Below, piece after piece: positions 117 through 32,030 of a stretch of 32,134 nucleotides of DNA. Below the pieces are notes generated by a model. It worked only from the letters and a program-made list of their open reading frames with translations. It made no database searches and was not told where the DNA came from. Each line of letters opens with the position of its first letter. Within the stretch, counting starts at the first letter, position 1. Both the position numbers and the translations under genes were made by a program. The DNA lies in NCBI RefSeq assembly GCF_003149045.1, contig NZ_QGDU01000037.1, positions 1 to 32,134 on the forward strand, written 5' to 3'. Source of the stretch: Fibrobacter sp. UWR4. Its GTDB lineage: Bacteria > Fibrobacterota > Fibrobacteria > Fibrobacterales > Fibrobacteraceae.

Positions 117-3100
117 TTGGCTTTGTCCTTGGTTTCTTTTGTAAGTGCTGCAACAGTGATACCTGCAAAACCGAAACTTGTGGATGGATGCTATCAAATC
201 GGTACGGCCCAGGAACTGTATGGCTTTGCAGCCATTGTAAACGGTTCTAACGGGATGACGCAAGATCCCGCTGCCTGTGGTAAGCTTACTGCAAATATCG
301 TCGTAAACAAGAACGTTTTGAAAGACGGAGTTCTAAGTGCAGACAGTAACAGCTTTTCTGTTTGGACTCCCATTGAAAACTTCCGAGGCGTTTTCGATGG
401 TCAGTACCATACTATTTCAGGTTTGTATTTCAACAACCCTGATTATACCGAAAAAGATGTTGGGGCTGCTTTGTTTGCCTCCACAAAGACTGCTGCAAGG
501 GATACAATCGTTATCAAGAATTTTGGCTTGGAGGACTCCTATTTCGAAGGCCCAAATTCTGCAGGATTCGTGGCTGAATTGGATACAGGTGTGTTGTATA
601 TGGAAAACGTTTACAATGTATCGAAGTCAAAATCGGGTTTTATTGGAGATTTAGGTTCTACGGGTGTTCGTAGGCTGATTATCACAAATGCTTTTGATTT
701 GGAACCGAATGTAGTTTCTAAGCCTGTTCGAAAATTGTATGGATATACTGGTAGATATGAGATTGCCACCAATGTCTATTATATAGGCTCTTATCGAAAG
801 TCAGAGGGAGTTTATCTTACAAATGTTGTGTATGAGGATTTTGAAAATGGCTTAATCGCTTCTCTATTGCGTAGTGATGCTCATGGAGCAGCCTGGGGAC
901 AGGTGGTGGGTTCTGATCCTTATCCTCTGTTCAAGAGCGAAATGAGTGGTTATGATGGGGATTTGAAATTCTCCAAAATTACTTGGAACGCCTATACAGA
1001 ACATGAACCGTATCCGGATCGGTACTTGGAAGAACGTGGGATGGTTCTCCCTGAACCGACCCGTGAAGGCTATGTGTTTATTGGCTGGTACGAAGAAGAG
1101 GACTTGTCTAAAGCCCCTATAAAAGAGATTGAAAGTAAAATGACGGGGGACCTGAATCTTTATGCCCGTTGGGGGAAGGTCCCTGCATTAGTCGACGGTT
1201 GCTACGAAATTGGAACTGTAGAAGAACTATTCGGCTTTGCGAAGGCTGTTAATCGCAAAAGTAGAGATAGCAGATCATTCTGCGGAAAGCTGACTGCGAA
1301 TATTGATTTGAATGCCGCTTATGGAAATGACGACAAAAAATGGACCTACTGGATTCCTATCCAGAATTACAGTGGAATATTTGATGGTAACGGATTTACT
1401 ATTCATGGCCTGGAAATTAATCGTTATGCCAAGCATGCGGTCGATACTGTAAATGTTGGCTTGTTTGGAAGTGTCTTTTCTGCTTCAGTAACGGAACGTT
1501 CTGTCATCAAGAATCTGGGGGTGACAGGTGTGTACCTGGATGCCCGTTACTGCGTTGGTTCTCTTGTTGGCGATGCCTTTGATGTGGATATCATTAACAG
1601 CTATGCAGTAGGTACACCCCATGGAGACTTGATGACAGGTGGTCTTGTGGGTTGCGCCAAAAATGTTTCTATCAAGGAATCTTATTTTAGGGGTGCTGTA
1701 GGTTATGGCTGTGACTGTGGCTTGATATCCAAGGGCGGTCTTATTGGGGAAGGCTGTGGAAAAATTGAAATTATAAATTCCTACTATGCAGGCACATCGT
1801 CTTATCGTCCTTCGAGTGAACGTAATTTTGGTGGCTTGATTGGCTCAAGATCGGACTCCTTGACAATCATCAATTCCTTCGCCAAGAATTTTTATGAAAC
1901 CAAGGCCTTGGAAGGCGGTTTGCTTGGCCATGGTTCTACTTCTGGTGTTGTAATTGAAAATTCCTTCTATCAAACAAAGTCAACTTCGGATACAATCGCA
2001 TACGGCGCTACCTCTGCTGAATTTAAGAACGGTACCGTTGCTACCAAGTTGCGTAATTACAACAAGGATGGGGTGGATGGCTCCGTATGGGGACAGCTGG
2101 TTGGAGAGGATGAATATCCTAAGTTAATCGGGAAGATTACGGTCAATAAGGAAAATTCCATTGTGCCGAAAAATCCGAAACTGTCGGATAAGGGGTGCTA
2201 CCAGATTGGAACCGCAGAGGAACTGTATGGCTTTGCCCTTCTTGCAGAAGCGTCTCGCTTTGATCTGCTCCCGATTTGTGGCGAATTGACCGCAGACATC
2301 GTGGTGAATAAGAATGTGGTTGTCCAGGATAGCCTGCTGAATGGGGATGGCCGCAACTTCATTGTTTGGAATCCCATCAGAAATTTCAACGGCACATTGG
2401 ATGGAAAGGGCCATGTTATTTCTGGCCTGTATTACAATGATGCCATGGATACAAATGCGGTTGCCTTTATCGGTAATGCCCTTAGCGTGGATGAATTGTA
2501 TCCTTCCAAAATAGAGAATCTTGGAATTGTGGATTCCTACTTTAGAGGGAGTCGCACGGCAGCCGGCCTTGTGGGGAAGGTGGATGAGGGTAGTAAGAAA
2601 TTCTTTATCCGCAATAGCTATAACAGAGCTACGGTTCATGGCTACGAAGTGGGTGGCCTTGTTGGGTACTCCAAAGCAGATTATCTTGAAATTTCACAAA
2701 GCTACAATGGTGGTGCTCTTCTCGGAAGTTTGACCGCAGGTCTTGTGGAATATGCAAGGGGTGTGATTTCTATTGATAACTCCTTTAATGTAGGTTTTGT
2801 GAATCGCGGTTTTGGCCTAGTCAATGGTGTGGCGGATTCCCTGTCTGTCAGAAATTCCTATAGTGTGGATTTGGTTAATCCCAATCCTACTCATGGAATG
2901 GCTTGGGTTGGTGCAAGCTGGATTTCTGGCAAATACTCCTTTGAGAATGTGTTCGGTGTTGCGATGGATCCTTCTAAAGCGACAATACTTGCTTCCGATA
3001 GTAGTACCATTTGGGTAACGCTGGAACAGTATAAGAATGGTTCTGTGGCGACCGCACTGCATAACTATCATGGCGATGGTATGGATGGTTCCGTCTGGGG

Positions 3101-4976
3101 CCAGAATGTGGGTGTGGATTCTCACCCGGTGTTCTCTGGCAAAATTCAAAACTTGAGTAAGGATGTTATAAAGTCCAGTGTCAAGTTTGTGACCTTTGAC
3201 GGTGATACTCGAGAATACTATAGCGAGTATGTGGAAGGGGTGGCAATGGCCTTGCCATTTACTGCAAGAGAAAATCATGTGTTTGATGGTTGGTACGATA
3301 ATCCTACCTACGCCGGTTATCCAGTCACAGAAATTCCTGAGGACGCTACAGGAGCAAAGACTTATTACGCCAAGTGGATGCATTATCCGGATATTGTAGA
3401 GAACTGCTATGAAATCGGGGATGATGGAGAACTTTTCCTGTTTGCAGAAACTCTGAATAAGATTTACGACGATAGTAAAAATGAGGGTCGCGTCCTTTGT
3501 GCAAAGCTGACTGCAGATATTGTGGTCAATAGGAACGTTCTTGTGGACGGTACTCTAAATGTCGCAGATTCTTCCAAGTTCAAGAGATGGATTCCCATTA
3601 CTCGCTTTAGTGGTCTCTTTGATGGTCAGGGACATTCCATTTCAGGTTTGTTCTTTAGTTCTTCTGCAAATTATGTTGGCTTTATAAAAGAAGTTTTCGG
3701 AAGAACCGTTATCCGCGATTTGGATATTAAGGATTCCTATTTCAAGGGGTACGAAGGGGTAAGTTCGCTGGTCTCTGTTATGGATGGTTCTTCCAATCTC
3801 CTGCTGGAAAATGTACATAGCGAAAGTTATGTGTATGCCCAGTACCGGTATGGAGGCGGTCTGGTTGCCTATGCTGATGATGACGACACTCTAACTGTAA
3901 TAAATTGCGGTAAGTCCGATTCTACAAAGATGGGTAATCTGGGTGGTGGTCTATTAGGTGTATTCCACGGGACAGATGTGGTTATCGCAAACTCCTATAA
4001 TAAGGGCGATGTCTATGGAAGAAGCGATGTGGGCGGTCTACTTGGAAAGTTGAGTAGCGGAGGTTCTCTTAGCATTTACTATTCCTATAACGAAGGAAGT
4101 GTGGATGGATCTGCTGCTATTGGTGGCCTTTTTGGGGAAACCTCTCGCAATCTTCGTCTATGGAATTCCTATAACGTGGGTACGGTGACAGGCTTGAAAG
4201 TTGTGGGCGGTCTCTTTGGGTATTTTGCTGGCAGTGATTTCTCAGTGGTGAATACCTACAGCATGGCTACTGTGGTTGGCGATTCTGCAGTGGGAGACCT
4301 GATTGGCGGTACTTATAAATCAATGCCCGTAGAATTTGTCAATAGCTACTATGCCTATAACTCCTTGCCTGATGTTGGCGACACCAAGGCGACCTTGGCA
4401 GAATTCGTCGATGGCACGGTAGCGAAGAAGTTGCATGACTACAAGGATGAAAATCTGGATGGAACAGCCTGGGTGCAGTTGCCCAATGTGGATCATCCTG
4501 TCCTTGATGGGGAAGTGGTGGAATCCTTCGTTCGCAAACTTCCACGACTGCAGTTGAACAAGGACGATCTCGGACCGGAAAGTTCCAGTAGCACAATCTC
4601 CTGTTCTAGCAGTTCTGTGCAGAGTTCTTCCAGCATTGATGTTTCCAGCAGTTCTGAAAATGTTTCAAGCAGCTCTGTTACTTCGTCTTCTTCTGTGGAT
4701 ACAGAATCCTCCAGTTCTGAAGCGGAATCCAGCAGTAGCGAGAATCCTCTTGTTGCTCTCGGAATGACAGCTGCCCAATTCCGGGTTTACGGGATTTCTC
4801 GCGGCATTCAGGTGACGAATGTTCGCGTGGGGAGCGCTTACGCTGTATTTGATATGCAAGGACGTACTTTGCAAAATGGCATCGCAGGAACAACGGATTT
4901 CGTCCTGAAAATCCAGTCTCCGGGACGTTATCTGGTAAAAATTGCGGATTTGACGAAGAGTGTAATTGTAAAGTAG
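117..4976 (+). CDS. Giant secreted GLUG-repeat surface protein with InlB-type repeats and C-terminal sorting-like domain
   Basis: Probable secreted or surface-attached protein; its ligand cannot be told from the sequence. It contains four related modules beginning near residues 21, 359, 689 and 1093, each with a CYxIGTxxEL motif, a CGKLTA(N/D)I motif, a W-x-PI-x-x-(F/Y)-x-G-x-(F/L)-DG motif and many GLUG-type repeats (GGLVG, GGLIG, GGLLG). Listeria-Bacteroides (InlB B-repeat-like) units lie at about 290-350 and 1030-1085. A Ser-rich linker (about 1488-1544) precedes a C-terminal beta domain ending GRYLVKI...VIVK, which resembles type IX secretion sorting domains. The only in-frame start is TTG at 117, giving a hydrophobic signal core without its basic n-region. 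ATG at 86 encodes MKSQN in another frame; removing one T from the six-T run 100-105 joins it to the ORF and yields a classical signal peptide (MKSQNFSYITLALS, with cleavage after VSA). The gene is therefore probably frameshifted, phase-variable or carries a sequencing error. It is monocistronic, with a terminator downstream. Confidence 0.85.
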   Translation: MALSLVSFVSAATVIPAKPKLVDGCYQIGTAQELYGFAAIVNGSNGMTQDPAACGKLTANIVVNKNVLKDGVLSADSNSFSVWTPIENFRGVFDGQYHTISGLYFNNPDYTEKDVGAALFASTKTAARDTIVIKNFGLEDSYFEGPNSAGFVAELDTGVLYMENVYNVSKSKSGFIGDLGSTGVRRLIITNAFDLEPNVVSKPVRKLYGYTGRYEIATNVYYIGSYRKSEGVYLTNVVYEDFENGLIASLLRSDAHGAAWGQVVGSDPYPLFKSEMSGYDGDLKFSKITWNAYTEHEPYPDRYLEERGMVLPEPTREGYVFIGWYEEEDLSKAPIKEIESKMTGDLNLYARWGKVPALVDGCYEIGTVEELFGFAKAVNRKSRDSRSFCGKLTANIDLNAAYGNDDKKWTYWIPIQNYSGIFDGNGFTIHGLEINRYAKHAVDTVNVGLFGSVFSASVTERSVIKNLGVTGVYLDARYCVGSLVGDAFDVDIINSYAVGTPHGDLMTGGLVGCAKNVSIKESYFRGAVGYGCDCGLISKGGLIGEGCGKIEIINSYYAGTSSYRPSSERNFGGLIGSRSDSLTIINSFAKNFYETKALEGGLLGHGSTSGVVIENSFYQTKSTSDTIAYGATSAEFKNGTVATKLRNYNKDGVDGSVWGQLVGEDEYPKLIGKITVNKENSIVPKNPKLSDKGCYQIGTAEELYGFALLAEASRFDLLPICGELTADIVVNKNVVVQDSLLNGDGRNFIVWNPIRNFNGTLDGKGHVISGLYYNDAMDTNAVAFIGNALSVDELYPSKIENLGIVDSYFRGSRTAAGLVGKVDEGSKKFFIRNSYNRATVHGYEVGGLVGYSKADYLEISQSYNGGALLGSLTAGLVEYARGVISIDNSFNVGFVNRGFGLVNGVADSLSVRNSYSVDLVNPNPTHGMAWVGASWISGKYSFENVFGVAMDPSKATILASDSSTIWVTLEQYKNGSVATALHNYHGDGMDGSVWGQNVGVDSHPVFSGKIQNLSKDVIKSSVKFVTFDGDTREYYSEYVEGVAMALPFTARENHVFDGWYDNPTYAGYPVTEIPEDATGAKTYYAKWMHYPDIVENCYEIGDDGELFLFAETLNKIYDDSKNEGRVLCAKLTADIVVNRNVLVDGTLNVADSSKFKRWIPITRFSGLFDGQGHSISGLFFSSSANYVGFIKEVFGRTVIRDLDIKDSYFKGYEGVSSLVSVMDGSSNLLLENVHSESYVYAQYRYGGGLVAYADDDDTLTVINCGKSDSTKMGNLGGGLLGVFHGTDVVIANSYNKGDVYGRSDVGGLLGKLSSGGSLSIYYSYNEGSVDGSAAIGGLFGETSRNLRLWNSYNVGTVTGLKVVGGLFGYFAGSDFSVVNTYSMATVVGDSAVGDLIGGTYKSMPVEFVNSYYAYNSLPDVGDTKATLAEFVDGTVAKKLHDYKDENLDGTAWVQLPNVDHPVLDGEVVESFVRKLPRLQLNKDDLGPESSSSTISCSSSSVQSSSSIDVSSSSENVSSSSVTSSSSVDTESSSSEAESSSSENPLVALGMTAAQFRVYGISRGIQVTNVRVGSAYAVFDMQGRTLQNGIAGTTDFVLKIQSPGRYLVKIADLTKSVIVK

Positions 4977-14637: not shown

Positions 14638-15888
14638 TTAACCGTTGTACTTCTTGATGATCACGATACCGTTGTGACCGCCGAAGCCGAGAGAGGCGGA
14701 AGCGGCAACATCCACGTTCATGGAAACGCCCTTGTTCGGGGTGTAATCCAGGTCGCATTCCGGATCCGGATTTTCCAAGTTGATGGTGGCCGGAACAAAG
14801 GAATCGCGGATAGCCAAAGTGCTGATGAGGGCTTCGCAGATGCCTGCCGCACCGACGCAGTGACCGGTCATGCTCTTGGTGCTGGAAACCTTGATCTTGC
14901 GAGCGTGATCGCCCAGGGCAAGCTTCAGCATGGCTGTTTCGGTAACGTCGTTCAGGTGGGTGGAAGTACCGTGTGCGTTGTAGTAGTCAATGTCGGTGGG
15001 TTCGATGCCTGCGTCCTTGATGGCGCGGAGCATTGCCTTGGCGCAACCGCTTCCATCCGGCTTGGGGCTGGTAATGTGGTATGCGTCGGCAGAAGCGCCG
15101 TAGCCGGCCAGTTCTGCATAAATCTTTGCGCCACGAGCCTTGGCGTGTTCCAGTTCTTCCAGAACGAGAACTGCACCGCCTTCACCCATGATAAAGCCAG
15201 AACGGTCCTTGTCGAAGGGACGGCTTGCCTTTTCGGGAGCGTCGTTAAACTTGTCGGTCAAGGCGTGCATGCCTGCGAAAGCCTTGATAGAATAGTCGGT
15301 CACGCCACTTTCAGAACCACCTGCAAGGCAGATGTCCAGACGGCCGGAACGGACGGCGTCCAGGGCAACACCAAGAGCGTCGGTACCAGAAGCGCATGCG
15401 GTCGCAACAGTCCAGGCGCAACCGGTAATGCCCAAGTTGATAGAAACGTTTGCAGCGCCTTCGTTCGGGATAAGTTCAGCCATGGCGAGAGGAGAAACGC
15501 GACGCTTGCCGCCAGCCACATACTGGTTGAAAGTGGAGTCGGTAACATCGATACCGCCGAGACCGCAACCTGCGATCACGCCAGTGGTATCTGCGTGAAG
15601 ATCGTCTTCGCTCAAGTTTGCGTCAGCCACAGCTTCCTTGGAGGCTGCCAGCAGGAACTGGGTAAAGCGTGCCATACGGCGGGCTTCCTTGGGGTCGATG
15701 CCGTGTTCTTCTGGCTTGAAGTCCTTGACTTCGGCAGCGATCTTCACCGGACAATCGGTGGCGTCGAACAGAGTGATGGGGCCAATGCCGCACTTTTCGT
15801 GCTGGATGCCATCCCACAGTTCCTTAACGTTCTGGCCAAGAGGTGTCACTGCACCCATACCTGTAATTACAACGCGTCTTCTAGTCAT
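14638..15888 (-). CDS. fabF: 3-oxoacyl-[acyl-carrier-protein] synthase II
   Basis: Condensing enzyme of type II fatty acid synthesis that elongates acyl-ACP with malonyl-ACP. The Cys-His-His active site is visible: Cys165 in TACASGTD, His306 in HGTST and His343 in SMTGHCVGA. The N-terminal RRRVVITGMGAVTPLG is the family signature, and the 416-aa length is normal. ATG 15888 is preferred because it gives this signature N-terminus with a GAGAA-type ribosome-binding site; a longer in-frame start gives only an unconserved nine-residue extension. No other fab genes or acpP adjoin it. A terminator separates it from the acyl-CoA ligase gene upstream, so it may have its own promoter. Confidence 0.95.
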   Translation of the reverse strand: MTRRRVVITGMGAVTPLGQNVKELWDGIQHEKCGIGPITLFDATDCPVKIAAEVKDFKPEEHGIDPKEARRMARFTQFLLAASKEAVADANLSEDDLHADTTGVIAGCGLGGIDVTDSTFNQYVAGGKRRVSPLAMAELIPNEGAANVSINLGITGCAWTVATACASGTDALGVALDAVRSGRLDICLAGGSESGVTDYSIKAFAGMHALTDKFNDAPEKASRPFDKDRSGFIMGEGGAVLVLEELEHAKARGAKIYAELAGYGASADAYHITSPKPDGSGCAKAMLRAIKDAGIEPTDIDYYNAHGTSTHLNDVTETAMLKLALGDHARKIKVSSTKSMTGHCVGAAGICEALISTLAIRDSFVPATINLENPDPECDLDYTPNKGVSMNVDVAASASLGFGGHNGIVIIKKYNG

Positions 15889-15923
15889 ATGATTCTCGTT
15901 AAAAGTTTTTGCCAAAATATAGA

Positions 15924-17716: not shown

Positions 17717-18487
17717 TTAGAGGTCCCTGTACATGATCTTTTCGCGGAGAGAGCTTGCGTAGCGAACCATGTTCAGCAGACGCTTTTCGCCGATGGTCTG
17801 GAAATCACTGTTGTGGATGACCAGACGGGGAGTGCCTCCGGGAAGAAGCATGGTGAGGCAGGCGACGCTCTGAGCGATACCCAGCAGGAACTGCGGGATG
17901 ACGGAGAAGGTCAATACTTTAGACTTCAAGGATGTGAAACTGATGTCGGTTTTCTTGTAAATGCGGCACAGATCTTCGTAGTAATCCAACTGTTCAAGTG
18001 CTTGACTCTTGAGGTGCTTGTTGGCAAACCATACCGGCGGAATAAAGCCGGTGGGCTGACCGGAGCCGTTGGCGTTCCACAGGGCGAGACTGCGGTTCAA
18101 CAAAGCCTGGGAGAAACGTTCGTTCAAACCGGCGAATTCTGCACCATTGTTGGAGAGCCACAGTGCTGCTCGACCGATGAAATTTCTGTTGATGAACAGG
18201 TCTGCACGATGGCGAGCGCCATGCAGGAGAATTTCGTAGCCTTCGTTGACGAACTTTTCCAGTTCCTCGTGGAAGTATTCGATTTCGGATTCAGGTACGC
18301 CACCGACGGAGGGCACCACTGCGATAGAGATAGGAGAGCCTGCGGCTTCGGCAATCTTGCGGATTTCGACCACGGCCTTCTTGCAGTTCTTTACAGTGAG
18401 GTTGTGGTAGCAGAGGATGTACTTCTTGTCCTTATGACGTTTTTGTTCTGCAGCTTGGAGGTCTGCGATGTCCTTATTCATTTCCAT
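17717..18487 (-). CDS. DUF2334-like polysaccharide deacetylase-family protein
   Basis: A 256-aa protein resembling DUF2334, a branch of the NodB-like deacetylase fold. Visible signatures are an early strand (YILCYHNLT), SISIAVVPS near residues 53-60 and HGARH at 89-93, which corresponds to the metal-binding H-x-x-x-H of the fold. Activity on a real polysaccharide is unproven. The ATG at 18487 is preceded by GGGTAGG, which overlaps the stop codon of the micro-ORF upstream; this argues for translational coupling. A second ATG at 18481 is possible. Being in one operon with an acyl-CoA ligase suggests a role in envelope or lipid modification, but that is inference. Confidence 0.75.
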   Translation of the reverse strand: MEMNKDIADLQAAEQKRHKDKKYILCYHNLTVKNCKKAVVEIRKIAEAAGSPISIAVVPSVGGVPESEIEYFHEELEKFVNEGYEILLHGARHRADLFINRNFIGRAALWLSNNGAEFAGLNERFSQALLNRSLALWNANGSGQPTGFIPPVWFANKHLKSQALEQLDYYEDLCRIYKKTDISFTSLKSKVLTFSVIPQFLLGIAQSVACLTMLLPGGTPRLVIHNSDFQTIGEKRLLNMVRYASSLREKIMYRDL

Positions 18488-18493
18488 AGTGAC

Positions 18494-18598
18494 CTACCCG
18501 TTAAAATTTTCCTTGTCCAGCTTGCTGGAAATATAGACGTGGTAAATTGCAAAAATAATTGCAGAGAGTAAAGCGAGTCTTCCGAGAACTTTGCCCAT
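18494..18598 (-). CDS. 34-aa single-pass membrane micropeptide
   Basis: The short ORF encodes MGKVLGRLALLSAIIFAIYH followed by VYISSKLDKENFNG. It has a basic N-terminus, one hydrophobic stretch (about residues 8-23) and a charged tail, as in small membrane proteins. An excellent ribosome-binding site, AAAGGTGG, lies five bases before the ATG. The stop codon TAG is part of the GGGTAGG ribosome-binding site of the DUF2334 gene six bases downstream, so the two appear coupled. It is the first gene of the micropeptide-DUF2334-ligase operon. I know no family for it. Between its start and 18792 lies AT-rich sequence, presumably holding the operon promoter, but no convincing -35/-10 pair was seen. 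Confidence 0.65.
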   Translation of the reverse strand: MGKVLGRLALLSAIIFAIYHVYISSKLDKENFNG

Positions 18599-18792
18599 AG
18601 GAACCACCTTTAGTTGAAGTTAATAATCCACCTGGAAAAATAGCAAAATGTGACTTACTAAGATAATTACTTTTTTATTCCAATTGATAACGAATGTATG
18701 TAAGAAAAAAAGAAAGAAACGCTCGTGTTTTAAAGAACCTGAAAAAGACCCGTTTTTTTATGGTTTAGTGGAAAAAATGGCGTTTTTAGACG

Positions 18793-18829
18793 AAAAACGG
18801 CAGGAATTTGCGTTACCAAATCCCTGCCG
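18793..18829 (-). terminator. Rho-independent terminator for the alpha-E gene
   Basis: A 13-bp stem with one mismatch (18798-18810 with 18817-18829, loop CGTTAC) is followed on the minus strand by a T run (complement of 18793-18797). It ends the transcript of the alpha-E gene. On the plus strand, T residues near 18836 could give weak termination too. Confidence 0.8.
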
Positions 18830-18884
18830 CGGCGCTTTTTTTGGAATGGAGTGCGCCTTTGTTGCTGTGTGGATCAGCAGTAAT

Positions 18885-19814
18885 TTAACAGAAGAAGTCC
18901 TTCCAGATTTGTGTGCCAAGATCGCAAAGGTTCACCTGCATTTCTTCAATCTTCTCGTGAAGACCGCTCTTGATGATTTCCTCGATGGTGGAGAAAGCCA
19001 TATCGGAACGCATCTTCCCGAGAAGACGGAGAGAGTCCGCGTTGCTCTTTACGGGGAAGGCAATATTCTTGAGGCTGATTTCGGCCTGTTCCAGGCAGTA
19101 GCGGAGGGACCTGGGGAAGTCTTCGCTCAATAGCAGGAATTCGGCAACGTTCTGGGGCGTCACATTGGAATTCTTGCGATGAAACATTTCGTAAGCGCCC
19201 ACGCTCTTGAGAACCGCATTCCACTGGACGGTATCCAGAGCCATGCCCACCATGCTTACATCCGGAAGGAGGATGTAGTACTTCACATCCAGAATTCGGG
19301 AAGTCTGGTCGGCGCGTTCAATCATGGTGCCGAGACGCGCGAAGTTCCAGGCTACGTCATGGGTCATGGTTCCCTGAATGATACCTACGGTCAGCTGGCT
19401 GAATTCCTTCACGCTGTTGTAGAAGGCGTGGGGTGCGGCTAAAGCCTGCTTGGGCATTTCGGGATCGTTCAACTTAAGATAGAACTGGTTGATGGCAATC
19501 CACAATTCAGAGGAAATTCTCTCGCGGACGCAGCGGGCGTTTTCGCGGGCGGCAGCCACGCAGGAAATAATGCTGCTGGGATTATCCTTATCGAAGGTAA
19601 GGAAGGTGAGGGCGTTTTCGGTAGAGACGTGGGCGTAGCTTTTGAAGAAGGCATCGGCGTTACCGGCGGTCTGGATCACCGGTTCCCAGGGGCGTTCTTC
19701 GCCGGGCAAGTCCAGCTGCAACTGAAGATTGACATCGATGGCGCGTGCCACGTTTTCTGCACGTTCAATGTAACGGCCCAACCAGTAAATGGAATCTGCA
19801 ACTCTGCTTAACAT
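18885..19814 (-). CDS. Alpha-E domain protein (DUF403)
   Basis: A 309-aa helical protein with the family start MLSRVADSIYWLGRYIERAE and the internal YILLPD segment. Alpha-E proteins occur almost always beside circularly permuted ATP-grasp and transglutaminase-like genes, and comparative genomics predicts a joint role in forming or processing amide-linked peptides; the biochemical role of alpha-E is unknown. The ribosome-binding site CGGAG precedes the ATG. It is separated from the ATP-grasp gene by 165 bases that hold a palindromic element and a terminator, so its expression may be uncoupled from the rest of the cluster. A second alpha-E domain is fused to the first gene of the same cluster. 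Confidence 0.92.
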   Translation of the reverse strand: MLSRVADSIYWLGRYIERAENVARAIDVNLQLQLDLPGEERPWEPVIQTAGNADAFFKSYAHVSTENALTFLTFDKDNPSSIISCVAAARENARCVRERISSELWIAINQFYLKLNDPEMPKQALAAPHAFYNSVKEFSQLTVGIIQGTMTHDVAWNFARLGTMIERADQTSRILDVKYYILLPDVSMVGMALDTVQWNAVLKSVGAYEMFHRKNSNVTPQNVAEFLLLSEDFPRSLRYCLEQAEISLKNIAFPVKSNADSLRLLGKMRSDMAFSTIEEIIKSGLHEKIEEMQVNLCDLGTQIWKDFFC

Positions 19815-25093: not shown

Positions 25094-25257
25094 TTGATTG
25101 TTTTACAATTTTTGTTTGTAAAGGGACGTGGGCCTTTGGTTTTTGTTATGGGAGTCCATCAACCCTTGAAACGGTGCGAAGTAGCCTTAAGAAAACACCG
25201 TTTTACTGTAAAAATCTAAAAATAATTATGTTAGTATGCGAAATACTACAAAAAATC
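25094..25257 (+). other. Intergenic region with hairpin and possible weak promoter
   Basis: The span between the two divergent operons holds no convincing gene. TTGATT (25094-25099) and TGTAAA (25117-25122), 17 bases apart, could be a weak promoter. A 10-bp stem with 19-base loop (25167-25176 with 25196-25205, one G-T pair) is followed by little T. A 6-bp palindrome, TAGTAT/ATACTA, lies at 25232-25248. A small RNA or an operator region is possible; neither is established. Confidence 0.3.
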
Positions 25258-25286
25258 TTGCTTTTGCAAATGAGTTTGATTATATT
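25258..25286 (+). promoter_or_regulatory. Sigma-70-type promoter of the restriction-modification operon
   Basis: TTGCTT (25258-25263) and TATATT (25281-25286) are separated by exactly 17 bases. The expected start is six to eight bases later, that is at or next to the A of ATG 25293, predicting a leaderless mRNA. Confidence 0.6.
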
Positions 25287-25292
25287 TGTAGC

Positions 25293-25883
25293 ATGTCGAA
25301 AGATTTATCCATAATTGTGCAGTTAGGGGACGTTGCCGACCTGTTGGTAGGCTATCCTTTTCGCAGCACTTGCATTCCAGGGGGACAGGGGGTACTTACC
25401 TGTTTTTTAAAGGATGTGGATGCCGGCGGAGTCCTTAACGTGCTTGCCCTAAAGCGTGTGGAGGGCGTGTCTCCTAGCCCCTCTCATTTAGCAAGCGAAG
25501 GTGACATTGTTTTCCGATCCCGTGGAACAAGTTTCGTAGCTGCCGTCGTACCCGAAGTTCGCGAACACATTCTTGTTGCCGCACCCATGATCCTCATTCG
25601 CGTGAAGGACGGCGTTGTTTTGCCTGAATATCTTGTTTGGTGGATAAATGGAGCGCCAGGGGAGTCTTATTTCAAGGAACACGCCAAAGGCACGGGGATT
25701 CCCCTAATAAGCAAGGCCGTCCTTGAAAAGATGCCCTTAAAATTGCCAAGCATCGAAGATCAGCAAAAAATCATTGACTTGGTCAACTTGAATAAAAAAG
25801 AACAATTTCTAATGTCAGAAATTGCCATTCGAAAGAACTTAATTTTAGAACGAGAAATTTCAAACTATCTGGAGTCGCTATGA
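25293..25883 (+). CDS. Small HsdS-like protein with a single target-recognition domain
   Basis: A 196-aa protein with one type I specificity-subunit unit: VQLGDVADLLVGYPF at the start, a variable region, then PEYLVWWIN, KGTGIPLISKAVLEKMPLKLP and the EDQQKIIDLVNLNKKEQ helix that normally spaces two such domains. It is about half the length of a standard HsdS, so it might work as a dimer to recognise a palindromic site, or modify specificity. ATG 25293 agrees with the promoter and gives the standard N-terminus; an ORF start at 25236 lies upstream of the predicted promoter. No ribosome-binding site is visible, consistent with a leaderless message. The ATGA at its end overlaps hsdM. Confidence 0.8.
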   Translation: MSKDLSIIVQLGDVADLLVGYPFRSTCIPGGQGVLTCFLKDVDAGGVLNVLALKRVEGVSPSPSHLASEGDIVFRSRGTSFVAAVVPEVREHILVAAPMILIRVKDGVVLPEYLVWWINGAPGESYFKEHAKGTGIPLISKAVLEKMPLKLPSIEDQQKIIDLVNLNKKEQFLMSEIAIRKNLILEREISNYLESL

Positions 25884-27445
25884 CCGAAAACAACGTCAAA
25901 AAAATTCAGCAAGACGACATTAACGCCGCAGCATGGGCCGCTTGCGATACATTCCGCGGTGCGGTTGATCCGGCTCAGTACAAGGACTACATCCTGGTGA
26001 TGCTGTTCCTCAAATATATGTCCGATGTTTGGCGCGACCATTACGAGGCTTACCGTAAACAATATGGCGACGACGAATCCAGAATTCGCCGCAAATTGGA
26101 ACGCGAACGCTTTGTCTTGCCCTTGGTCCAGCTCACGAATGAAAAGGGCAATGTGATAGATGAATTCACCGCTGACTACTACAGCCTTTACGATAGACGA
26201 ACCGCAGATAATATTGGCGACCTTATCAACATCGTTTTGGATAAAATCGAAACTCAGAACCGCCTGAAGTTGGAAGGCGTTTTCCGTAACATTGACTTCA
26301 ATTCCGAACCGAACTTGGGCAGAACCAAGGACCGCAACCGTCGCTTAAAAACACTTCTTGAAGATTTCCATAAAGAAGAATTGAACATGTCGCCCAGTCG
26401 CGTTTCCGAAGACATTATCGGCAACACCTACATGTACCTATTGGAACGATTCGGTACGGAATCCGGCAAGAAGGCGGGAGAATTCTTCACACCGTTCGTT
26501 GTAACGGAACTCGTGGCAAAACTCGCCGACCCCAAGGAAGGTGACAAGATTTGCGACCCCACTTGTGGCGCAGGCGGATTGCTGCTCCAGGCATCCAAGC
26601 AAATTGGCGGAAACAATTTCGCATTATTCGGCCAGGAATCCAACGGAAGCACTTGGGCACTTTGCCGCATGAACATGTTCCTGCATAGCACCGACAGCGC
26701 CCGCATCGAATGGGGCGACACGCTGAACAACCCCATGCTCGTTGAAAAAGACAAGTTGATGAAATTCAACGCCGTGGTTGCAAATCCCCCGTTCTCGCTA
26801 GATAAATGGGGTGCCGAAAATGCAGAAAGCGACCCTTACAACAGATTCTTCCGCGGTATTCCGCCCAAGAGTAAGGGCGACTGGGCCTTTATCACCCACA
26901 TGGTCGAAACGAGCCTCGTTGGCGAAGGTCGCGTTGTCGTGGTTGTTCCCCACGGAGTTCTTTTCCGTGGAGCATCCGAAGGCAAAATCCGCGAAGCCAT
27001 GATTGAAGAAAACTTGCTGGATGCAGTTATCGGCCTGCCCGAAAATCTGTTCCCGACCACAAGTATTCCGGTGGCAATCCTTGTATTTGACCGCAGTCGT
27101 GAAAAGGGCGGCAAGAACGAAAAACGCAAGGACGTCCTGTTCATTGACGCAAGCCGTGAATTTGTGCAAGGCAAAAAGCAGAATTCCCTTTCCGAAGAGA
27201 CCATCACAAAAATCGTAAATACCTACAAAAAGCGCAAGGCCATTGACAAGTACGCTCACCTGGCCACCCTCAAGGAAATCAAGGATAACGAATACAACTT
27301 GAACATCCCGCGCTATGTGGACACCTTCGAAGAAGAAGCCCCCATTGACATTGACGAGGTCCAGAAGGATATTGACCGCCTTGAAAAGGAACTGGCAGAA
27401 GTCCGCAAGCTGATGGCGCAAAAACTCAAGGAAATTAAGCGGTAG
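25880..27445 (+). CDS. hsdM: Type I restriction-modification DNA methyltransferase subunit
   Basis: N6-adenine methyltransferase of a type I RM complex. The N-terminal helical HsdM_N domain (about 1-160, with YILVMLFLKYMSDVW) is followed by the catalytic domain: the SAM-binding motif DPTCGAGGLLLQA from Asp226 and the catalytic NPPF at 302-305. Residues about 450-520 form a C-terminal region ending in a Lys/Glu-rich coiled coil (DIDRLEKELAEVRKLMAQKL), where HsdS usually docks. The 521-aa length is normal. The start overlaps the HsdS-like gene by four bases, and the next gene starts seven bases after its stop, so the order S'-M-accessory is one transcript. Confidence 0.95.
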   Translation: MTENNVKKIQQDDINAAAWAACDTFRGAVDPAQYKDYILVMLFLKYMSDVWRDHYEAYRKQYGDDESRIRRKLERERFVLPLVQLTNEKGNVIDEFTADYYSLYDRRTADNIGDLINIVLDKIETQNRLKLEGVFRNIDFNSEPNLGRTKDRNRRLKTLLEDFHKEELNMSPSRVSEDIIGNTYMYLLERFGTESGKKAGEFFTPFVVTELVAKLADPKEGDKICDPTCGAGGLLLQASKQIGGNNFALFGQESNGSTWALCRMNMFLHSTDSARIEWGDTLNNPMLVEKDKLMKFNAVVANPPFSLDKWGAENAESDPYNRFFRGIPPKSKGDWAFITHMVETSLVGEGRVVVVVPHGVLFRGASEGKIREAMIEENLLDAVIGLPENLFPTTSIPVAILVFDRSREKGGKNEKRKDVLFIDASREFVQGKKQNSLSEETITKIVNTYKKRKAIDKYAHLATLKEIKDNEYNLNIPRYVDTFEEEAPIDIDEVQKDIDRLEKELAEVRKLMAQKLKEIKR

Positions 27446-27452
27446 GGTCCCC

Positions 27453-28919
27453 ATGAACTTTAAAGACCTAGAAAGACTGATTTCGCAAGATGAAACAAAA
27501 TCCCTGGAATTGAAAAAATCTACTGGGGAGCTGAAGGAGGGAATGCGCTCGGCCTGTGCATTCCTGAACTCTGATGGTGGAATTCTTGTATTCGGTATTT
27601 CTCCGTCTTTAAAAATTATCGGGCAAATCGTGAATGAGTCCACCCGTCGTGACGTGGCTCAAATAATGTCAGGAATTGAACCTGCCGTTAATCCTGTCGT
27701 GGAATACATTGATATTCCTGGAAAACCAGGATTTCAGGCTATAGTTTTAAAGTTTAATCCGTGGGTGTATGGCACAAGACCATACACGTTTCAAGGCAAG
27801 CCCTATTATAGGGTAGAAAGCGTGACTAAGGTAATGCCTCGCGATTTGTTTGATGAAAGAATCATGCAGAATCGCCCGAGGAAATATGCCTGGGAAATGC
27901 AGCCCGCCGAAAACATCCGTATCGAAGATCTTGACGAAGGCCGAATCAGAGGCGCTGTCCGTGTCGGTGTGGAAGGAGGACGCATTTCAGAAATGTCCCT
28001 CCACGCATCTCTTGAAGAAATCTTGGAGAAATGGGAACTGCTCGAAAATGGCGTTTTGAACAACGCTGCAGCCGTGCTGTTCTCTAAAAAGAAAACCCGA
28101 GATTTCGAACTGAGAATGGCGCGCTTTCGCGGAACAGACAAGCTCCATTTCATAGACAATCAACGGGTACACGGGAATTTTTACGAACTGATGGATGCAG
28201 GGATGGCTTTTTTCTTTAAGCATCTATCTCTTAGCGGCGAAATTACAGGCTGGTACAGAGAAGAACATTTGGATATTCCAGTAGCGGCATTGCGCGAAGC
28301 CTTGATCAACGCCATTTGCCATCGCGACTACGAAAAATACCAATGCTCCATCGGCATCGCCATTTACGACGATCGTATCGAAATAGAAAGCCCGGGACTA
28401 CTCCCGAGGGAATTGACTCCAGAAAGCATAAAATTGCCGCACAGGTCCTACCCAAGAAACATCACCTTGGCGTCTGTATTGTACAGCACCATGGTTTTGG
28501 AAAACTGGGGTTCTGGAGTAAAGCGCATCATGGACGCCTGCAAGGCCGAAGGCGCCGAAGAACCTAGCTGGTTCGAAGAAACTGGATTTGTGGTAGTTTC
28601 ATTCCCGTTCAACAAGCTAAACGGCGTTGAAATCAAGAAAAATCGTGGTAATTCCCAGAACGAGCCTCAAAATGAGCCCCAAAACGAGCCTCAAAATGAG
28701 CCCCAAAAACGAAAGCTCAACATAGAAGATATAGTAAAGTCCAACAATACTATTTCTATCAATGAAATTGCCTTGAGTGTAGGAGTAAGCCGTATAACGG
28801 TAAAAAGAGATTTGAAAGCCCTTGGCATTAAGTGGGAAGGCCCTTCAAAAACTGGACATTGGGTTAAAAAAGAGAAAGAAGGGCGAGAAGGAGAATACTA
28901 TGACACCAAGAAAATCTAA
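27453..28919 (+). CDS. Schlafen-AlbA_2 / HATPase_c_4-type ATP-binding protein with C-terminal HTH
   Basis: A 488-aa protein of the AlbA_2-HATPase group often annotated as transcriptional regulator. The N-terminal AlbA_2 domain (about 1-130) has ESLELKKS-like and AFLNSDGGILVFGI motifs. A GHKL-type region follows (ALREALINAICHRDY...YDDRIEIESPG...ENWGSGVKRIMDAC). A linker with four NEPQ repeats leads to a winged-helix-like segment (about 425-470: SINEIALSVGVSRITVKRDL). Similar proteins are frequent in and beside type I RM and phage-defence loci, where their role is mostly unknown. Being between hsdM and hsdS suggests regulation or sensing for the RM complex. It ends 20 bases inside the next ORF. 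Confidence 0.85.
   Translation: MNFKDLERLISQDETKSLELKKSTGELKEGMRSACAFLNSDGGILVFGISPSLKIIGQIVNESTRRDVAQIMSGIEPAVNPVVEYIDIPGKPGFQAIVLKFNPWVYGTRPYTFQGKPYYRVESVTKVMPRDLFDERIMQNRPRKYAWEMQPAENIRIEDLDEGRIRGAVRVGVEGGRISEMSLHASLEEILEKWELLENGVLNNAAAVLFSKKKTRDFELRMARFRGTDKLHFIDNQRVHGNFYELMDAGMAFFFKHLSLSGEITGWYREEHLDIPVAALREALINAICHRDYEKYQCSIGIAIYDDRIEIESPGLLPRELTPESIKLPHRSYPRNITLASVLYSTMVLENWGSGVKRIMDACKAEGAEEPSWFEETGFVVVSFPFNKLNGVEIKKNRGNSQNEPQNEPQNEPQNEPQKRKLNIEDIVKSNNTISINEIALSVGVSRITVKRDLKALGIKWEGPSKTGHWVKKEKEGREGEYYDTKKI
28659..28706 (+). repeat. Tandem 24-bp repeat (four 12-bp units, NEPQ)
   Basis: Two identical 24-bp units, each made of two near-identical 12-bp units, encode four NEPQ tetrapeptides in the linker before the HTH segment of the Schlafen-like gene. 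Gain or loss of units keeps the frame and would change only linker length. Confidence 0.9.
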
Positions 28920-29187
28920 CAATCCGCAAATAACTATCCATAGTTGGCTAAGAAGTCGCGACATTGTGGAATTTTTGGGCCTACGGGAGAGCCTTCATAA
29001 CCCTGATTTTAAACGTAGCAAATTCGATACGTTTAAAAAAGATGCGGGTAGTTTTATAAAACAAGGCTTGCCTCAATCGGATCGTCTTGAAAAATTGCGC
29101 GAAACCGCAGAAAGTCAATTAAGAACCTTGCTTACCCTTAATTTGCAGAATCCTATTTTGGCGAATGGTGGCGAAAATGGCAAATAG
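28900..29187 (+). pseudogene. Internally deleted KilA-N domain protein (relic)
   Basis: A 95-aa ORF with a good ribosome-binding site (AAGGAG) at ATG 28900. Residues 12-50 (IHSWLRSRDIVEFLGLRESL, then HNPDFKRSKFDTFKKDAG) match the start of KilA-N domains, which read W-LRNRxTxEFLGxWExxxNPxFN...EFDxIxxxAG. From Ser51 the sequence (SFIKQGLPQSDRLEKLRETA) instead resembles the far C-terminal end of full KilA-N proteins found at RM loci, which run to about 250-280 aa. The central domain core and the region up to the C-terminal helix appear to be missing by an in-frame deletion. The ORF may be a harmless relic retained for translational coupling, or a mini-protein with a new function. It overlaps both neighbours (20 and 11 bases). 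Confidence 0.6.
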
Positions 29188-31207
29188 CAATGAACATATT
29201 GAAAACTATCTAAAGGAATATCTTCAGATTGATAGGCCTAGCTATGCCGTACTTATCAAAGGGGCATGGGGGTCCGGGAAAACATATTTTGTAAAAGACT
29301 TCATTGCAAATAATCTTGGCAAAAAAAACAATAGTACGCTAAAACCTGTTTATGTAAGTTTATTTGGAGTAAAATCTAAAGATGATATTGACGAACGAAT
29401 TTACGAGGCAGTACACAATATTTTTGGGAAACCCATTTCTAAATTGGCATTTAGCGTCGCAAAGACAGCAGCGCTAGTCGGTGCTAATGTTTTAGGAGGT
29501 CCTGCTGGACAAGGAGCTGCTTCTGGAGCAATGAAGGAAGCCGAAAAAATTGGAAAGCAGTTGCGTAAAGTAAACGACAATTTCGTTTTGTTTTTTGACG
29601 ATTGTGAAAGGGCTGCAACAAATCTGATTGAACTATTGAGTTTTATAAACCCGTTTGTTGAGGACGATGGTCTTCATTGCGTTATTGTTGCTGATGAAAA
29701 TGTTTGGAATGAGCAATTTAAAGAAAAAAATATCAAACAGAAGAATATTTACGAGATTGCTAATTCTACACAAGAACAAAATCAAACGCGCCAACTAAGA
29801 TACCAAATAGATGAAATTGAAGAAAAAAGTCGGACACAAAGCTTAAGATTTGTAAAAGAAAAAGTTATTGGCAGAGAGTTTCTTATAAAAACAAATGTCG
29901 AGGATGTTCTAAATCAGTGGCTCAATACTTCTGACAAGTCTTTGGGATTTTCGGATCGGACAAAAAAACTTTTAAAAGATAATCTCGACATCCTATTACG
30001 CGTAGTCTCTATTGCCAATGTTTCCAATTACAGGGCTATTCGCTACTCATTAATGGATTTTGATTTGTTTATCGGAGGACGAATAAAGCAAAAAAAGATT
30101 CCAGAATATCTCTTAAAGAATAACGAATTTAACTCTCTGTTTATTGCAGACTTCTTTAGCATACACTATGCATTTTATCTAGGTAATCTAACTGAAGGAG
30201 AAATTGGTGTTGAGACTCCCGATGGTGAGCGTATAAAAGCATATATGCACCACTCCTATGAAATTCCATCAACAGCATGGGAACGACACGCTGAATTTTA
30301 TTCTTCCATTGAAAGACTTTCTGCAAATACAGGAGACTATGGGAAAAAATGGTTTGATGTATGGAAATCCTGGATAAAGGACGGCCAATACGATGTTGAA
30401 TATGTTCGTAGATTGATAAAGGAGTCCATTTGGTTTGACAAAAAACTATCTTCTACCTACCAAAAAATATATAGATGGCCATTCTTACCATCATCAGAAG
30501 GTACTGAAGCGATTGAAGCGTTTTATGCGGCGTTAAAAGACGAAGCTCTTTTAAACACCAATGAAATTTTCTCATTATTCTACCATCTTTATTGGTATGC
30601 AAAAAAAGGTGCTTTAAAACAGTCTGGTGACGAATTTATCAAAGAGATGGAATCCTATGTACAGCGGGTGAAGGCAAAAAACAAACTGATTTATGAAGAA
30701 CTGGATTCTAAAGATTACATTTTGCAGTATCACTCTATTTATAAAGAATATGAAGATAAAAACGAAGCGTTCCGAAATTTTTTGGAAAATATGCAACAAC
30801 AGGCAAAAGAAAAACAAAGAGAGAAATCTAAGAATGATTTTTTCGTGTGTTTAGAAAGTGGAAATGTTAAGAAAATTGTAAAAGCATGTTCTTTGATTTC
30901 AAAATGCAATGGGTGTGATGAACTTTTTGTTCTTTCTGATATTGATATAAATCGATTTGTTGATGTTTTTCTTTCTTACGATCCGGACTCTCAAAATCGA
31001 ATAAGAACAGCCCTAGTTGAACGATATGATTGTGGACGTGTAAAAAAGGAAGATGAATTGGCTTTTTTGAAATCACTACGATGCTGTGTCCAAGAAAAAT
31101 TTAACGAGCCCATCAAAGACGGAGCACTATCAAAAACCACGAGCCAATTTGGATTACATTATTTTCAAATGACCTTGAATAAGATTTTGGGAAATCGAGA
31201 AAAATGA
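29177..31207 (+). CDS. KAP-like P-loop NTPase
   Basis: A large (about 676-aa) P-loop NTPase. The N-terminal NTPase has Walker A GAWGSGKT (29-36, Lys35) and Walker B FVLFFDDCER (Asp141-Asp142), with an inserted hydrophobic Gly/Ala-rich stretch between them (about 92-116: TAALVGANVLGGPAGQGAAS), as in KAP-family NTPases that contact membranes. The remaining 500 residues are helical without recognised domain. Such NTPases are commonly found in defence islands; the trigger and effector are unknown. GGTGG lies just before ATG 29177; an ATG at 29165 would add four residues. The gene is visibly more AT-rich than the upstream housekeeping genes, which fits lateral acquisition. The stop overlaps the next mini-ORF by four bases. 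Confidence 0.8.
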   Translation: MANSNEHIENYLKEYLQIDRPSYAVLIKGAWGSGKTYFVKDFIANNLGKKNNSTLKPVYVSLFGVKSKDDIDERIYEAVHNIFGKPISKLAFSVAKTAALVGANVLGGPAGQGAASGAMKEAEKIGKQLRKVNDNFVLFFDDCERAATNLIELLSFINPFVEDDGLHCVIVADENVWNEQFKEKNIKQKNIYEIANSTQEQNQTRQLRYQIDEIEEKSRTQSLRFVKEKVIGREFLIKTNVEDVLNQWLNTSDKSLGFSDRTKKLLKDNLDILLRVVSIANVSNYRAIRYSLMDFDLFIGGRIKQKKIPEYLLKNNEFNSLFIADFFSIHYAFYLGNLTEGEIGVETPDGERIKAYMHHSYEIPSTAWERHAEFYSSIERLSANTGDYGKKWFDVWKSWIKDGQYDVEYVRRLIKESIWFDKKLSSTYQKIYRWPFLPSSEGTEAIEAFYAALKDEALLNTNEIFSLFYHLYWYAKKGALKQSGDEFIKEMESYVQRVKAKNKLIYEELDSKDYILQYHSIYKEYEDKNEAFRNFLENMQQQAKEKQREKSKNDFFVCLESGNVKKIVKACSLISKCNGCDELFVLSDIDINRFVDVFLSYDPDSQNRIRTALVERYDCGRVKKEDELAFLKSLRCCVQEKFNEPIKDGALSKTTSQFGLHYFQMTLNKILGNREK

Positions 31208-31263
31208 GTATGAAAGAATTTGAAAAAGGGATTGAGAAAATCCTAAAGAGGGCCTTCAAATGA
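31204..31263 (+). CDS. 19-codon coupling mini-ORF
   Basis: ATGA overlaps the NTPase stop at one end, and the TGA of this ORF overlaps the ATG of hsdS at the other. The peptide would be MSMKEFEKGIEKILKRAFK, a basic amphipathic helix. It may serve only to carry ribosomes from one gene to the next; a real peptide product is unproven. Confidence 0.35.
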   Translation: MSMKEFEKGIEKILKRAFK

Positions 31264-32030
31264 ATTTGCCTAATGGATGGAAAAAAGTGAAGTTGGGAGA
31301 TGTTTGTTCTTTATTGTCAGGTCAAGACTTTGCACCAGAATTATACAGCGATGAAACATTGGGAACCCCTTATATTACAGGGGCGAGTAATTTCGCCAAC
31401 AATCATATTGTTTTAAATAGATGGACCAATTGTCCTAGGTGTATTGCTCACAGAGGTGAAATACTTTTAGTATGCAAAGGGTCCGGTTTTGGAACTTTGG
31501 CTATTGCAGATTTTGAATCAGCTCACATCGCCCGTCAAATTATGGCCTTGCAAAATTTGAAAGGCGTAGATAGGGACTTTTTGTTTAATGTAATTGCAAC
31601 AAACTTTTTGAATATAAAACAAAAAGGATGTGGACTAATTCCTGGCATTGATCGGAAAACTGTATTGAATATTTCCTTTGCGTTACCTCCTCTTGCGGAA
31701 CAGAAGAAAATTGCCGAGACTCTTTCTGTTTGGGATTCTGCCATTGAAAAAATGGAGAAGTTGGTGGTGCTTCAAAATAAAAGATTTCAACAAATGTTAA
31801 AGGAACATATTGTTGAAAAAATTGATGATGGAGCATGGGATACTTGCCGCGTAGGCGACCTTTTTGATGCCGTAACAAGAAAAAATAAAGAAAATTGTAA
31901 AAATGTACTGACATCTTCTGCGCAGCTAGGTTTGGTAAATCAGCAAGAGTATTACAAAAAAAGTGTTTCTGCTTTAGATGTTACAGGTTATTATTTCGCG
32001 GATTCTCATCGTCAAGTAAATCCGATCTAG
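31260..32030 (+). pseudogene. hsdS: HsdS specificity subunit, truncated inside the second target-recognition domain
   Basis: Target-recognition subunit of the type I complex. Residues 1-145 contain the first TRD (NGWKKVKLGDVCSLLSG... ending GIDRKTVLNISFALPPLAEQ), followed by the conserved spacer helix (KKIAETLSVWDSAIEKMEKLVVLQ). The second TRD starts near 190 (WDTCRVGDLFDAVTRKNKEN) but stops at residue 256 with ADSHRQVNPI, where full proteins continue for about 130-150 residues through the rest of the TRD and a second helix. Similarity fades after TGYYF, so the end may be a rearrangement or insertion junction. The methyltransferase could still work with one TRD plus the separate small HsdS-like protein. 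GAGGG precedes the ATG. Confidence 0.7.

Follow-up and report, generated by a model that had tools for sequence, protein, structure and literature searches.

Single-pass small membrane proteins are a known kind of protein. CydX, AcrZ and KdpF of Escherichia coli are conserved proteins of under 50 residues, each with a single hydrophobic helix, and they are found beside cytochrome bd, AcrB or Kdp. The Fibrobacter family described here is alike in these three respects but, where scanned, matched no Pfam or NCBIfam model at its cut-off, and the microprotein on which we concentrate lies beside enzymes apparently of envelope-lipid type. It is encoded in what we call the window, the whole stretch of 32,134 nucleotides of Fibrobacter sp. 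UWR4 DNA that was analysed. Members are of two kinds, termed copy 1 and copy 2, the window's gene very probably being an instance of copy 2.

Three further systems invite comparison. DltA is an AMP-forming ligase, and a Pfam model for DltX exists. One report presents DltX of the dlt operon as a small membrane protein in an envelope-modifying operon (PMC10903887). Our locus similarly combines a small membrane protein with an AMP-forming ligase in one operon, a comparison of how the systems work only, whereas its neighbours are DUF2334 and fabF, and the Pfam matches obtained at E ≤ 1 with 28 members of copy 2 and 21 of copy 1 include no DltX. The GpgSDF operon of Pseudomonas aeruginosa concerns glucosaminyl-phosphatidylglycerol, its deacetylase GpgD acting on GlcNAc-PG, and the part of that paper available to us names no microprotein (PMC12713373). 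The likeness here is that the neighbouring DUF2334 protein weakly matches the GlcNAc-PG deacetylase model NF053788, at 41.4 of 280 bits and hence far below the equivalog cut-off; however, the window's gene set yielded no gene of GpgS or GpgF type. Finally, YfhO proteins belong to lipoteichoic-acid glycosylation systems. In other genomes, copy 1 is followed by a gene that resembles YfhO by sub-threshold Pfam matches, but the window contains no such gene.

The microprotein gene and its neighbours

The features of the locus, in the direction of reading, are as follows.

18830..18797, minus strand: terminator-like hairpin between the upstream Alpha-E gene and the microprotein gene, by consensus match
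18610..18604, minus strand: Shine-Dalgarno-like AAGGTGG, 5 nt before the microprotein ATG
18598..18494, minus strand: microprotein gene, very probably copy 2 of the family, 34 residues plus stop, recognised by its open frame and conservation
17717..18487, minus strand: DUF2334 gene, predicted deacetylase-like, 256 residues, PF10096
15972..17714, minus strand: AMP-binding acyl-CoA-synthetase-like gene, 580 residues, 2 nt after DUF2334
14638..15915, minus strand: fabF, beta-ketoacyl-ACP synthase II, 425 residues as listed from a TTG start, above the cut-off of NCBIfam TIGR03150

The encoded peptide, read from 18598 to 18494 on the minus strand, is MGKVLGRLALLSAIIFAIYHVYISSKLDKENFNG. An earlier, sequence-only reading had correctly placed a membrane peptide gene at 18494-18598 without giving its strand, which is the minus strand, since the plus-strand frame contains a stop. 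That reading was equally right about the ribosome-binding site, in the form of the AAGGTGG, and about the downstream gene, which matches PF10096 with 50.4 bits against a cut-off of 26 bits (E 2.7e-13). It had also put the ORF at the head of its gene set, as the terminator-like hairpin separating it from the Alpha-E gene indicates; the hairpin consensus was matched once, against 0.3 matches expected in shuffles, and a promoter scan of 18441-18900 returned no sigma-70-like site. The stop codon (18496..18494, with the ATG of DUF2334 at 18487 following after 6 nt) does, as claimed, fall within the ribosome-binding site of DUF2334, but the feature is modest in the window, where the overlapped TAGG is weak.

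What could not be sustained is the argument that these features are hard to explain by chance. Among the 245 ATG ORFs of 25-60 residues in the window, nested starts counted, five combine a Shine-Dalgarno-like site with a stretch resembling a transmembrane segment, and the four besides ours each lie inside a larger ORF. Such features alone are weak evidence for a gene; conservation decides.

The DUF2334 protein shares H28, H89, H93, D96, H225 and D228 with its paralog, residues which we take to have a putative metal role. A second DUF2334 gene, around 31-37% identical to that of the window, is present in most genomes of the genus and lies at C2:14207-14926 (L035) in the window's own genome. Three DUF2334 matches each were seen in five genomes of genus g18 and in a sixth genome.

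Elsewhere in the window, the translations suggest by eye a type I restriction-modification locus at 25236-32030, with two specificity-like ORFs, a methylase-like ORF and further ORFs between them. A 1619-residue ORF at 117-4976 contains repeated modules and, close to the C-terminal end, a serine-rich stretch; by eye it looks like a surface protein.

Sequence conservation and selection

Conservation was assessed in 80 Fibrobacter genomes, the window's own (G000) included. A DUF2334 ortholog, defined by E ≤ 1e-60, was present in 69 of these, and the upstream DNA was read in all 69, in G026 over the 154 nt before a contig end. In 51 of the 69, again counting the window's genome, DUF2334 is immediately preceded by a homologous ORF; 50 were recognised by motif pattern and one, in G077, by reading. 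A scan of genome contigs gave one relative only, a Fibrobacter MAG. When the window peptide by itself was used in tblastn, 51 of the 80 genomes gave matches at E ≤ 1, many of which were weak, with values of up to 0.08 at the DUF2334 locus. None of the 51 tblastn matches at the DUF2334 locus contains an internal stop. A profile of 28 copy 2 sequences raised the matches at this locus to 1e-14 or better, although it includes many of the sequences found.

A Shine-Dalgarno-like motif lies at most 16 nt upstream of the ORF in all 51 copies; in 48 it is GGAG, and the remaining three, that of the window among them, have AGGT. In 49 copies 3-12 nt separate the stop from the DUF2334 ATG, the others being G074 (26 nt) and G077 (21 nt), and in G011 the stop overlaps an AAGGAGG. 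This tight spacing suggests coupled translation.

The sequence-only reading had proposed looking in relatives for conserved amino acids with synonymous variation, and this is what is seen. Without correction for saturation, pN/pS is about 0.28 for the 44 distinct copy 2 sequences of the main clade, 0.23 for its 74 closest pairs and 0.33 over all 49 distinct sequences. Third codon positions are the most variable, divergence at positions 1, 2 and 3 being 0.162, 0.090 and 0.449 in the main clade over the first 34 alignment columns; the tail beyond these columns is loosely constrained (0.525, 0.433 and 0.595). In a set of 20 sequences, amino-acid changes amount to 0.316 per codon; placing as many changes at random, 200 times over, gives 0.530, with 0.523 as the lowest value. 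In window numbering, M1, K3, F16, H20, K26 and L27 are invariant among 28 aligned copy 2 sequences. The ORF is thus a small one, within about 50 codons, that is under selection on its amino acids. Together with the homologous open frames at one place in 51 genomes, these tests bear out the proposal of a real microprotein with one membrane segment, and we regard it as almost certain that the ORF encodes a real protein. The evidence for gene, selection, family, context and absence of copy 1 is computational throughout.

An ORF broken in relatives that keep DUF2334 had been named as the result that would count against the gene. The ORF is missing from 18 of the 69 genomes, but all of these lie outside the ORF-bearing branch: on the DUF2334 tree the 51 ORF-bearing genomes make up one side of a single branch (SH-aLRT 81), and the 18 others, for which two groups are needed, fall towards the root, itself set by two distant paralogs. 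No motif-bearing ORF was found in the 300 nt upstream of DUF2334 in the 18 (154 nt for G026), nor did the copy 2 profile find any match below E 0.04 in their whole genomes, so that these look like cases of absence rather than decay. One gain of copy 2 would be the simplest reading, though with an uncertain root one or a few losses are possible.

One pair of genomes behaves differently. Between the window's genome and its nearest relative, G036 (L002:1390-1491), only two of the 105 nucleotides of the microprotein gene differ. At third positions 1 of 34 differs, whereas DUF2334 has 87 differences in 256 (Fisher p 4e-5). Upstream of the Shine-Dalgarno site, no relationship between the two sequences is apparent. 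Such a near-freeze would be consistent with a role at the RNA level in these two genomes. There is no freeze across 206 pairs of the main clade, where third-position divergence is 0.456 in the microprotein gene and 0.387 in DUF2334.

A wider family and its second genomic context

The copy 2 profile also gave weak matches in other genera which, on reading, proved to be relatives at a different place. Two profiles were built around these, neither with a copy 2 row: A3, from four relatives in other genera with no genus member, and A4, from 21 copy 1 sequences, 13 of them from the genus. A3 revealed a second copy of about 36 residues, away from DUF2334, in 76 of the 80 genus genomes at E ≤ 0.001. 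A4 matched 77 at E ≤ 0.01, counting G015, matched in part, whose copy 1 is a cut-off piece at a contig edge; those without a match are the window's own genome, G036 and G070 (71% complete). Elsewhere in the family Fibrobacteraceae, A4 matched 17 of 31 genomes, 15 of them at E ≤ 1e-5, and none of 12 in genus g16; beyond the family, it gave a weak match in one of 56 genomes, in a 231-residue frame. Weak profile matches in G130, G070, G068:C60 and G150:C50 were dropped as lying inside a longer ORF, broken by stops or having no fitting start. At least one family member was detected in 79 of the 80 Fibrobacter genomes searched; members are about 34-44 residues long, mostly with one copy of each kind per genome.

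The two kinds of copy are connected most strongly through G011, a relative of the window genome that has both. Its copy 2 is found by A3 at 3.3e-6 and by A4 at 1.1e-5, the copy 2 profile finds the copy 1 of G161 at 0.001, and hhalign places copy 1 and copy 2 in register (94.6%, E 6.6e-8), with the proviso that profile scores of short hydrophobic peptides may be inflated by composition. For the window's copy alone the connection is weak, with an A3 match at 0.53 and none with A4 at 0.01. Overall, we are confident that the window ORF is copy 2 and homologous to copy 1.

The family is unnamed in the libraries and literature listings searched. Of the members scanned against Pfam, 28 of copy 2 and 21 of copy 1, none matched a model at its cut-off; the same was true of NCBIfam for the window peptide and the 21 copy 1 members. 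A solved-structure search gave no match at E ≤ 1, and literature searches on Fibrobacter small proteins or microproteins and on DUF2334 showed no title on the family among the matches listed. Weak matches to DUF1240, Flp_N, Gip immunity (6 of 21 members, best 2.1e-4) and Tmemb_9 were taken as chance.

Copy 1 has a context of its own. In 24 of the 25 loci read a YfhO-like gene follows 56-242 nt downstream, measured to the tblastn match, the exception being G159, with no YfhO match in about 1.1 kb downstream. The YfhO assignment derives from Pfam matches below the cut-off, at 21 to 27.3 of 28.5 bits (1.2e-4 to 1.6e-6). Upstream, 20 of the 25 loci have a gene with ArsR-HTH and methyltransferase regions, at a distance of 63-228 nt in 19 of them and of 958 nt in G005; it was not found there in G074, G077, G009, G016 and G017. 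Several copy 1 genes have, judging by eye, a hairpin and a run of T behind them. The window's copy precedes DUF2334 and not a YfhO-like gene. In the window's genome and G036 the methyltransferase and YfhO-like matches are 62 and 53 nt apart, with no copy 1 peptide frame between them, which leaves copy 2 as the sole family member detected there. As a single event, this is suggestive of replacement of copy 1 by copy 2 in the window lineage.

Predicted structure and proposed role

Both hydropathy, with a mean of 2.04 for the best 17-residue stretch of the 51 copy 2 sequences, and an AlphaFold2 model with one helix from residue 2 to 33 (mean pLDDT 85.5) predict a single hydrophobic helix. The N-terminus is the more positive and the C-terminus negative in all 51 copy 2 sequences and in all 21 copy 1 sequences counted, G158 not being among the latter. 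Membrane protein topology generally follows the positive-inside rule, so this asymmetry points to an N-in/C-out arrangement, in which the basic N-terminus would lie inside and the acidic tail outside, the distal end of the predicted membrane segment bearing an F..YH......KL motif.

The microprotein would most likely be a small accessory subunit binding membrane or membrane-associated enzymes of envelope-lipid modification. Ancestral copy 1 would work beside the YfhO-like membrane protein, and copy 2 would be made together with the DUF2334 deacetylase-like protein and the acyl ligase. The resemblance of DUF2334 to a glycolipid deacetylase model and the link of YfhO to glycosylation favour this role. 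Against it, copy 1 and copy 2 have different contexts, adjacent genes do not necessarily encode partners, the YfhO matches are below the Pfam cut-off and DUF2334 is far below that of the glycolipid deacetylase model. We therefore propose an N-in/C-out single-helix accessory subunit of envelope-lipid enzymes tentatively, judging it to fall just short of an even chance.

Alternative explanations

A chance intergenic ORF could have explained the features visible in the window, given the four other ORFs that share them, but it is refuted by conservation in 51 genomes and by the deficit in amino-acid changes per codon; we reject it, allowing it practically no probability. Very improbable, too, is a hydrophobic peptide of type I toxin kind checked by an antisense RNA. 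The size, the one hydrophobic segment and the strong Shine-Dalgarno-like site would suit it, yet the family is near-universal in the genus at syntenic places, a genome mostly having a single copy of each kind, and the ORF sits in a gene set with enzymes. The proximity of stop and start in 49 of 51 copies, and the near-freeze in G000 and G036, are what one would expect of a leader peptide acting in cis only, whose translation opens or regulates the DUF2334 start while the peptide itself is irrelevant. However, the peptide is not free to vary: by pN/pS and codon position the constraint is on amino acids, and main-clade third positions diverge as much as those of DUF2334. Moreover, the homologous copy 1 does not abut its neighbour, and 18 genomes have DUF2334 without the ORF. 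No Rfam family or folded leader RNA was found either, the 190-nt fold being unremarkable (z 0.62, one fold) and 18400-18900 giving no Rfam match at E ≤ 0.1. A leader peptide is accordingly improbable, and it, like the toxin, fits less well than an accessory protein.

Harder to set aside is a real membrane microprotein whose partner is encoded elsewhere, for example a transporter, sensor kinase, protease or respiratory complex, the place before DUF2334 being a convenient site of expression. Copy 1 and copy 2 do lie in different operons, and the literature describes many small membrane proteins that act on larger membrane proteins. On the other hand, copy 2 is directly before DUF2334 in 51 of 51 genomes although its wider neighbourhood varies between clades. 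We regard a partner elsewhere as quite possible, at appreciably less than even probability.

For the accessory subunit of envelope-lipid enzymes, a history can be sketched. Fibrobacteraceae would need one dedicated microprotein for envelope-lipid or glycan modification. A single duplication would have placed a second copy in the DUF2334 operon; in the window lineage this duplicate would have taken over from the ancestral copy, whose clean deletion would have followed. Taken as a whole, this scenario is doubtful.

Conclusions

The case shows that real small genes can be separated from chance ORFs where sequence features alone fail. Fibrobacter are fibre degraders of the rumen and gut, and to these organisms our results add an unnamed Fibrobacteraceae family of small membrane proteins of about 34-44 residues. 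With one copy linked to a YfhO-like gene, another to a deacetylase-like gene and a lineage keeping only the second, the partner and function of the microprotein are directly testable.
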